DNA of 32,785 nt. It comes from Limnobacter sp. Its GTDB lineage: Bacteria > Pseudomonadota > Gammaproteobacteria > Burkholderiales > Burkholderiaceae_E. The notes under the pieces are model-generated. The model was not told the origin of the DNA and ran no database searches. It saw only the letters and a program-made list of their open reading frames with translations. Shown here piece after piece: positions 23,889 through 25,513 of the stretch. The stretch's first letter is position 1, and each line of letters opens with the position of its first letter. The stretch lies in contig JAAZBL010000306.1 of assembly GCA_012513825.1 (NCBI GenBank), positions 1 through 32,785 on the forward strand, given 5' to 3'. A program made the translations under genes and the position numbers.

Positions 23889-24197
23889 ATGAAAGCAATC
23901 CCGATTTCGATCGCCCTCGCGCTCGCCTGTGCCTCGGGCACCGCCATGGCGAGCCTGGAACTGGCGAAGGCCAAGAACTGCACCGCCTGCCATGCCGTCG
24001 ACAAGAAGCTGATCGGCCCGGCGTACAAGGATGTCGCAGCCAAGTACGCGAACGACTCGAACGCGGTCGCAACGCTGTCGGAGCACGTGCGCAAGGGCAG
24101 CACCGGCGTTTGGGGCCCGATTCCGATGCCCGCGAACCCGCAGGTCTCGGAGGCCGAGGCGGAAACCCTGGTGAAGTGGATTCTCGAGCAGAAGTGA
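23889..24197 (+). CDS. Periplasmic class I cytochrome c (c-551/c-552 type)
   Basis: Small soluble electron carrier. The 102-residue precursor has a signal peptide (MKAIPISIALALACASGTAMA), haem site CTACH (C31, C34, H35) and the distal Met80 in WGPIPMPANPQ. The C-terminal helix is EAETLVKWILEQK. The pattern KNCTACHAVDKKLIGPAYKDVAAKY is that of cytochrome c-551/c-552. GGAG lies 5 bases before the ATG; a TACACT at 23833-23838 may be its -10. The track's long extension upstream is spurious. A terminator with a T8 tract follows. The specific partner oxidase or reductase is not in the window. Confidence 0.95.
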   Translation: MKAIPISIALALACASGTAMASLELAKAKNCTACHAVDKKLIGPAYKDVAAKYANDSNAVATLSEHVRKGSTGVWGPIPMPANPQVSEAEAETLVKWILEQK

Positions 24198-24246: not shown

Positions 24247-24270
24247 GGCGCCATCCGGCGCCTTTTTTTT
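24247..24270 (+). terminator. Intrinsic terminator of the cytochrome c gene
   Basis: GGCGCC-ATCC-GGCGCC followed by eight T residues: a perfect 6-bp stem with a strong T-tract. Confidence 0.93.
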
Positions 24271-24406
24271 CGCCGTGCACCGCCCGTCGGGGATCGATCG
24301 CCGACGGTCGCTGCCCGCGTGCGCTCGCCGACGATCCGGCCCACAGTGGAACCGTAGTTTTCCTCCCTGGCTGGTTTGCCCCGGTTTCCACCGGGGCATT
24401 TTTTTT
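24271..24406 (+). ncRNA. Candidate small RNA between two terminators
   Basis: No ORF is convincing here, yet the segment ends in a second strong intrinsic terminator. Upstream of that hairpin lies the pyrimidine-rich AGTTTTCCTCCCTGGCTGG, whose CCTCCC is complementary to a Shine-Dalgarno GGGAGG. GTGGAACCG (about 24342-24350) can pair partly with CGGTTTCCAC of the terminator loop and stem. No clear -10 is visible. An unannotated transcript, or an extension of read-through from upstream, are the options. With the two terminators and the livH leader this fills the 383-bp gap between the cytochrome gene and livH. Confidence 0.4.
24378..24406 (+). terminator. Second intrinsic terminator, no upstream gene visible
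   Basis: GCCCCGG (24378-24384), loop TTTCCA, CCGGGGC (24391-24397), then A and eight T residues. A perfect 7-bp stem with a strong T-tract. Confidence 0.93.
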
Positions 24407-24580
24407 GTCGTCGGCGGCGCCTCGCGTCGCGCAGGCTCCCTGTCGGCCCGAGTTTTTGGTTAGAATTCGCGCCGCTTCGTGCTATTCGGAACGAGGCGTC
24501 ATCGAAGCGCAAGCCCGGCACCCGCACCGACTCGGGCGTCGACGACGGGGCCCGCGCGGTCCGGGACGGAGACAGACATC

Positions 24581-25513
24581 TTGTTCAGCTTCGACACCCT
24601 GCTCCAGCAGATCCTGAACGGCCTCGTGCTCGGCAGCGTGTACGCGCTCGTGGCGCTCGGCTACACGATGGTCTACGGGATCCTGCAGCTGATCAACTTC
24701 GCGCACGGCGAGGTGCTGATGATCGGCGCGATGGTCGCCGTGACGCTGGCGCCCAAGCTGCTGGCCGCCGGCGTGCCGGCACCGCTGGTGCTCGTGATCA
24801 TCGTGCTCGCGGCGATTCCGGTCTGCATGCTGCTGTCGGTCACGATCGAGCGGGTCGCCTACCGGCCGCTGCGCAACGCCCCGCGACTGGCGCCGCTGAT
24901 CACCGCGATCGGGATGTCGATCGTGCTGCAAACGGTTGCGATGATCATCTGGAAACCGAGCCCGATCGTGTTCCCCGACCTGCTGCCGAACGATCCGGTG
25001 CCGATCTTCGGTGCGTCGCTGGCGCCCAAACAGATCCTGATCCTCGTCGTGGCCTCCAGCCTGATGGCCGGGCTCGTGCTGCTGGTGAACCGCACGAAGC
25101 TCGGCCGCGCGATGCGCGCCACGGCGGAGAACCCGCGCATCGCCGGCCTGATGGGCGTGAACGCCAACCGCATCGTCGCCGCCACCTTCGCGATCGGTGC
25201 GGCCCTGGCCGCGGTCGCCGGCGTGCTGGTGGCGCTGAACTACAACATCGTCCACTTTTCGATGGGCTTCATCCCGGGCCTGAAGGCCTTCACGGCGGCG
25301 GTCCTCGGCGGGATCGGCAACATCGCCGGCGCGATGCTCGGCGGCCTGCTGCTCGGCATCATCGAGAGCCTGGGCGCCGGCTACATCGGCGACCTGACCG
25401 GCGGGTTCCTCGGCAGCCACTACCAGGACATCTTCGCGTTCGCCGTGCTGATCCTCGTGCTGCTGTTCCGCCCGTCGGGGATCATGGGCGAGCGCATCGC
25501 CGACCGGGCCTGA
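24581..25513 (+). CDS. livH: Branched-chain amino acid ABC transporter permease LivH
   Basis: Inner-membrane subunit of a HAAT-family importer. From the TTG at 24581 the protein is 310 residues, the usual LivH length. It shows QILNGLVLGSVYALVALGYTMVYGILQLINFAHGEVLMIGA, ERVAYRPLRNAPRLAPLITAIG, LVNRTKLGRAMRATAENPRIAGLMGVN and the late FIPGLKAFTAAVLGGIGNIAGAMLGG. The TTG has GGAG 9 bases upstream; the track's ATG at 24479 would add an Arg/Pro-rich tail. A TAGAAT at 24461-24466 may be the operon's -10, giving a leader of about 110 bases. First of four genes, followed 13 bp on by livM. Confidence 0.96.
   Translation: MFSFDTLLQQILNGLVLGSVYALVALGYTMVYGILQLINFAHGEVLMIGAMVAVTLAPKLLAAGVPAPLVLVIIVLAAIPVCMLLSVTIERVAYRPLRNAPRLAPLITAIGMSIVLQTVAMIIWKPSPIVFPDLLPNDPVPIFGASLAPKQILILVVASSLMAGLVLLVNRTKLGRAMRATAENPRIAGLMGVNANRIVAATFAIGAALAAVAGVLVALNYNIVHFSMGFIPGLKAFTAAVLGGIGNIAGAMLGGLLLGIIESLGAGYIGDLTGGFLGSHYQDIFAFAVLILVLLFRPSGIMGERIADRA

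Follow-up and report, generated by a model that had tools for sequence, protein, structure and literature searches.

The window, a 32,785-nucleotide stretch of Limnobacter sp. DNA (contig JAAZBL010000306.1), carries on its forward strand a small cytochrome c gene, the terminator of that gene, a second intrinsic terminator and livH, the first gene of a branched-chain amino-acid ABC transporter operon (Table 1). livH starts approximately 175 bases beyond the end of the second terminator (24406) and is followed by livM, from 25527. The livH leader (24461–24580) shows high conservation in the nearest relative, L002, and starts with TAGAATTCGCGCC, which resembles a −10 and is found again ahead of livH in many relatives. 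The cytochrome c terminator and its T8 tract were read directly, as in an earlier sequence-only reading, and a similar terminator is present in most relatives, the exceptions being L014, L015 and L017. The second terminator was likewise confirmed; its stem, TGCCCCGGT-TTCC-ACCGGGGCA (24377–24398), has 9 pairs, 7 of them G-C, with the T8 tract at 24399–24406. Directly 5′ of it, within 24336–24406, lies TTTTCCTCCCTGGCTGGTTTG, and TTTTCCTCCCTGG is located at 24358–24370. The list of open reading frames holds no real-looking frame in the interval 24271–24406, which agrees with the earlier statement that no convincing frame separates the two terminators. A terminator pattern of this kind is ordinary by itself (2 found in 3 kb, 1.5 expected from shuffled sequences), so the question had to be settled by comparison with relatives. 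At the far end of the window, a tRNA gene (Rfam RF00005; 32728–32785) runs off the sequence.

Table 1 Features of the cytochrome c–livH region of the window
Feature	Position	Strand	Basis and remarks
Small cytochrome c gene	23889..24197	+	Open reading frame with haem motif CTACH in the translation; conserved upstream neighbour, syntenic in relatives
Cytochrome c terminator, GGCGCC-ATCC-GGCGCC-T8	24247..24270	+	Sequence
Remnant promoter-side boxes, CCGCCCGTC ... ATCGATCGCCGAC	24281..24305	+	Upstream regions aligned on the −10
Hairpin 1 5′ arm, CCGGCC (relatives: CCAGCC)	24336..24341	+	Only if the transcript begins upstream
Weak candidate −10, CACAGT	24342..24347	+	Kept in the closest relative; insecure assignment
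Anti-Shine–Dalgarno site 2, UUUUCCUCCCUGG	24358..24370	+	In relatives, sits in the hairpin 1 loop
Hairpin 1 3′ arm, GGCUGG	24369..24374	+	Alignment of orthologues
sRNA intrinsic terminator, 9-bp stem and T8	24377..24406	+	Sequence; covaries among relatives
livH operon −10-like element, TAGAAT	24461..24466	+	Downstream of the sRNA terminator; conserved in relatives
livH, lead gene of the liv operon	24581..25513	+	Open reading frame; tblastn synteny

A DNA search covering 60 relatives located copies of the element within the genus and family to which the window belongs. All 19 orthologues first recovered retain the 17-base core TTCCTCCCTGGCTGGTT and the terminator in the same gene neighbourhood, defined by tblastn as running from ilvD through a small reverse-strand gene and cytochrome c to the element, livH and livM. 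Aligned, these 19 sequences show no variation in TTCCTCCCTGGCTGGTT, in the terminator's CCCCG or in the T-tract, nor in the TTCCTCCCTGG of anti-Shine–Dalgarno (anti-SD) site 2. Between the window and L002, 55 of 56 positions of the core are identical, compared with 266 of 327 in the remaining spacer (1 and 61 differences, respectively; Fisher p=6e-4). Such conservation in 19 of 19 orthologues, together with the contrast between core and flank, goes beyond chance, and the core of the window copy is evidently still constrained despite drift around it. The sequence-only reading had raised the case of a hairpin lost while the flanking genes are conserved; the opposite was found, with the hairpin conserved alongside its flanks.

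The covariance search proposed in that reading was also productive. A model (R1), built from the relatives' alignment with trimmed ends, gave a match in 60 of 74 genomes of the family, and inspection of the loci placed approximately 40 of the 60 at the cytochrome c/livH neighbourhood, strongly diverged copies included. The remaining weak matches in the family are other sRNA-like elements at other loci. Other families of the order gave weak matches as well, away from the livH locus. In a motif scan of genome contigs, records with the full two-site motif were mostly Burkholderiales MAGs, for example Lautropia sp. SCN 69-89, and three matches were labelled otherwise (Clostridia, Devosia and Dehalococcoidia).

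In the window and in most relatives the element stands directly upstream of livH, a position that would suit a cis-acting leader in which the terminator attenuates the livH operon until relieved by a signal; the sequence-only reading had also considered early termination within the leader of the operon. The RNA is, however, retained where livH is not the next gene (L003, L008 and L015), and the operon has a separate conserved −10-like element downstream of the terminator, where the sequence-only reading had placed it. Neither an alternative antiterminator pairing nor a leader peptide was noticed at the locus, and we regard attenuation of livH as highly improbable.

The full form of the element, found in most relatives, reads from 5′ to 3′ AGGCCTCCTCT and CCAGCC, followed by a loop whose last bases are CCTCCCT, then by GGCTGG, TTT and the terminator. 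Its plan comprises a conserved −10, a 5′ leader, a single-stranded CCUCCU (anti-SD site 1), a CCAGCC/GGCUGG hairpin (hairpin 1) with CCUCCC in its loop, and the terminator. In 32 aligned members, 98.3% of pair cells hold standard pairs and at most 57% do so when the pairing is slid, figures that lean towards the model to which this alignment was fitted. Three terminator pairs have changes on both sides. The pairs of hairpin 1 are kept in 98% of cells, the variation being almost solely on the 5′ arm and mostly compatible (A-U to G-U, C-G to U-G). A −10 (TACATT, TAGATT or TACAGT) is common to most full-form relatives at approximately 65–84 nt before the core, preceded at near-constant distance by the boxes CCGTCCGTCCG and CCRYCRATCGCCG. 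No −35 was evident in the upstream regions of these relatives aligned on the −10, which may point to an activator.

These features bear on whether the second terminator, on the same strand and after the cytochrome c gene, is a fail-safe that keeps cytochrome c transcription out of the livH operon and has no independent RNA function. It is the next terminator after the gene in the three relatives that lack the usual one (L014, L017 and L015), but most genomes already possess a good cytochrome c terminator, and a fail-safe would need no invariant TTCCTCCCTGGCTGGTT, pairing 5′ arm, conserved −10 or boxes. Given the invariant 17 bases, the hairpin and the promoter boxes, a mere tandem terminator is insufficient as an explanation, and we consider it unlikely.

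The window copy is reduced in that it lacks the first anti-SD site, as do L002, L006 and L011. Site 1 is kept and site 2 lost in L110, L114, L115, L125, L252 and L255, and in the very diverged L254, L256 and L258 the simple rule applied recognised neither. L110, L115 and L252 have ilvD nearby, with no livH within the stretch inspected. A canonical TANNNT −10 is not recognisable in the window lineage when upstream regions are aligned, CACAGT being the best candidate. It lies 39 nt from the ATCGCC box, approximately 10 bp beyond the canonical 29 nt, at which L006 and L011 have a −10-like hexamer (counted by hand). A start after CACAGT would give a 53-nt RNA from approximately 24354 and exclude the CCGGCC arm. 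Were transcription to begin earlier, CCGGCC could pair with GGCUGG in a predicted hairpin 1 that includes one G-U pair. The element proper is approximately 24336–24406, or 24354–24406. The interval first put forward as the candidate had begun at 24271, and its 5′ portion, 24271–24335, is promoter-side upstream DNA.

The want of a good −10 in the window lineage would be consistent with an sRNA that RNase E, for instance, cuts out of the 3′ untranslated region of the cytochrome c transcript and that is not made as a primary transcript. S17 and ncS27 are processed forms (PMC11722255 and PMC5688073, respectively), and no terminator separates cytochrome c from the RNA in L014, L015 and L017. In the window, however, a strong T8 terminator intervenes, and most relatives have a promoter-like −10 at fixed spacing; a 3′UTR origin is judged very unlikely, though it may apply to those relatives in which the first terminator is missing.

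The fold z-score of 24271–24420 is −4.57, in part because an outer stem extending beyond the T-tract contributes to it. This outer inverted repeat, GCGCTCGCCGACGA / TCGTCGGCGGCGC (24322–24335 and 24408–24420), encloses the sRNA and its T-tract. It has no counterpart in L002 and is therefore probably due to chance or of recent origin.

We interpret 24336–24406 (or 24354–24406) as an independently transcribed intergenic gene for a trans-acting, Hfq-type sRNA of approximately 53–80 nt that would repress Shine–Dalgarno-dependent translation, and assign this interpretation a probability of roughly 0.78 from the sequence comparisons. That a short regulatory RNA gene exists between the cytochrome c gene and the amino-acid-uptake operon is very probable. 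The small RNA first suggested from the sequence is supported in that it fits the known anti-SD architecture and is conserved at the locus; the suggestion that CCTCCC pairs with ribosome binding sites is, by analogy, in keeping with the layout of known anti-SD sRNAs. The primary transcript would stop at the T8 terminator. Hfq, which the window's genome encodes, may be recruited by the U-tail and hairpin of that terminator. CCUCCC, lying free at the 5′ end or within the hairpin 1 loop, would pair with GGGAGG-type Shine–Dalgarno sequences of target mRNAs and block ribosome binding. In most relatives the single-stranded CCUCCU 5′ of hairpin 1 would provide a second such site, lost in the window lineage. 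Translational repression at Shine–Dalgarno sequences is inferred from the presence of an Hfq gene and from a layout shared with experimentally supported sRNAs.

The element represents a distinct new family of a kind known in Neisseria, Bordetella and Burkholderia. Among its closest described counterparts are the Burkholderia double-hairpin RNAs of RF02278 (ncS03, ncS05, ncS27 and bdhR1; PMC5688073), which have two hairpins, the second being the terminator, and anti-SD stretches 5′ of and inside hairpin 1. Most orthologues fit this plan; in the window copy hairpin 1 needs a start upstream of 24336, and the 5′ anti-SD site is absent. The window element scored 19.2 bits with RF02278, compared with a gathering threshold of 50 in Rfam, and the 20 loci scored from relatives all fell below it. 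Four genomes (G002, G007, G014 and G032) contain the element and, at a separate locus, a true RF02278 member; in G014, the RF02278 copy receives only 22 bits from R1. RF02278 members read TGTCTCCTCCACCCTCCTCCTTTGGTGGATT, whereas the element's family reads AGGCCTCCTCT..CCAGCC..TTCCTCCCTGGCTGGTT. The sub-threshold scores and the coexisting copies argue for a separate family of like plan, which may or may not share its ancestry with RF02278. The window's own genome (G000) gave no RF02278 match at E≤0.01, and the three same-genus genomes searched have one; this reflects either loss or a gap in the 501-contig assembly.

In the RF02278 RNAs (PMC5688073) and Bordetella S17S (PMC11722255), as in the element's family, a short hairpin precedes a second one that serves as terminator, CU-rich anti-SD stretches lie both ahead of hairpin 1 and in its loop, and the mature form measures approximately 60–70 nt. 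S17 is described in PMC11722255 as having anti-SD sites at its 5′ end and in its first loop and as resembling RF02278, and S17S as having a 27-nt conserved block at its 5′ end. RF02278-type loci carry a block different from that of the element's family, and no Bordetella or Achromobacter record matched the family's own motif in the genome-contig scan. In Neisseria, the sibling RNAs NmsRA and NmsRB (PMC5362039) are built of a leader hairpin, a single-stranded anti-SD1, a hairpin with anti-SD2 in its loop and a terminator. Compared by described architecture and not by sequence, this layout corresponds to the full form seen among relatives of the window. Most orthologues have both sites, whereas the window copy lacks anti-SD1 and retains the second alone; the comparison is one of architecture and not of descent. 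No link of NmsR to liv was found in the passages of PMC5362039 consulted.

Membership of other Rfam families was rejected, with scores of 29.3 bits for RF00519 (mmgR/suhB; threshold 41) and 27.1 bits for SorX (RF02784; threshold 46.6), and anti-hemB and all others also below threshold. The alphaproteobacterial mmgR/suhB and SorX RNAs have in common with the element a CCUCCCU anti-SD before a GC-rich terminator, and homology is shown no further. Rhizobial AbcR1 and AbcR2 regulate ABC transporters (PMC3712013), a functional lead, with no sequence relation shown, because the element adjoins an amino-acid ABC transporter operon. Our literature search found no paper describing a betaproteobacterial sRNA beside livH.

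Proximity to the liv genes is no evidence that they are targets. Target prediction for the CCTCCC segment, suggested in the sequence-only reading, yielded no enrichment of complementary Shine–Dalgarno sequences. The exact 9-mer GGGAGGAAA occurs at four other places in the window's genome, none at a convincing start. Across the 74 family genomes, AGGGAGGAAA precedes ATG 24 times and the one-base control AGGGAGGCAA 28 times; the former matches include genes named by eye as 3-hydroxybutyryl-CoA dehydrogenase, acetyl-CoA acetyltransferase and methylisocitrate lyase-like. In relative G004 (1343 predicted genes, approximately 1.6 Mb, flank-shuffled controls), complementarity in Shine–Dalgarno context gave p values of 0.16–0.66 for site 2 and no better for site 1, with gene starts taken from a crude caller. 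These negatives are not decisive because the seed is short, the genomes are GC-rich and the gene starts are crude.

The element adds a syntenically anchored sRNA family, not present in Rfam, to the anti-SD sRNAs of Betaproteobacteria, and one genome can carry it side by side with RF02278. The separate loss of either anti-SD site among orthologues offers a natural comparison for the role of each. A broader proposal, which we hold to be doubtful, is that of an undescribed anti-SD sRNA family between cytochrome c and liv from which either site is lost by branch and whose position next to liv reflects control of amino-acid uptake and catabolism. If true, the family would illustrate the rewiring of a two-site sRNA, the window lineage keeping site 2 only and others site 1 only.

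Comparable elements occur elsewhere. At two loci from other families of the order (L122, 1501–1580; L127, 1501–1567), GGCTCCTCCCCCTTTATC ... GATAAGGGTTC, or a shorter form, is combined with a terminator, in what looks from its sequence like another anti-SD hairpin sRNA family of different sequence. At other loci in genomes of the window's family, L260, L261, L262, L264, L265, L267 and L269 have a CTCCTCC-like stretch with a hairpin and a terminator, and these genomes seem to hold several candidate anti-SD sRNAs.
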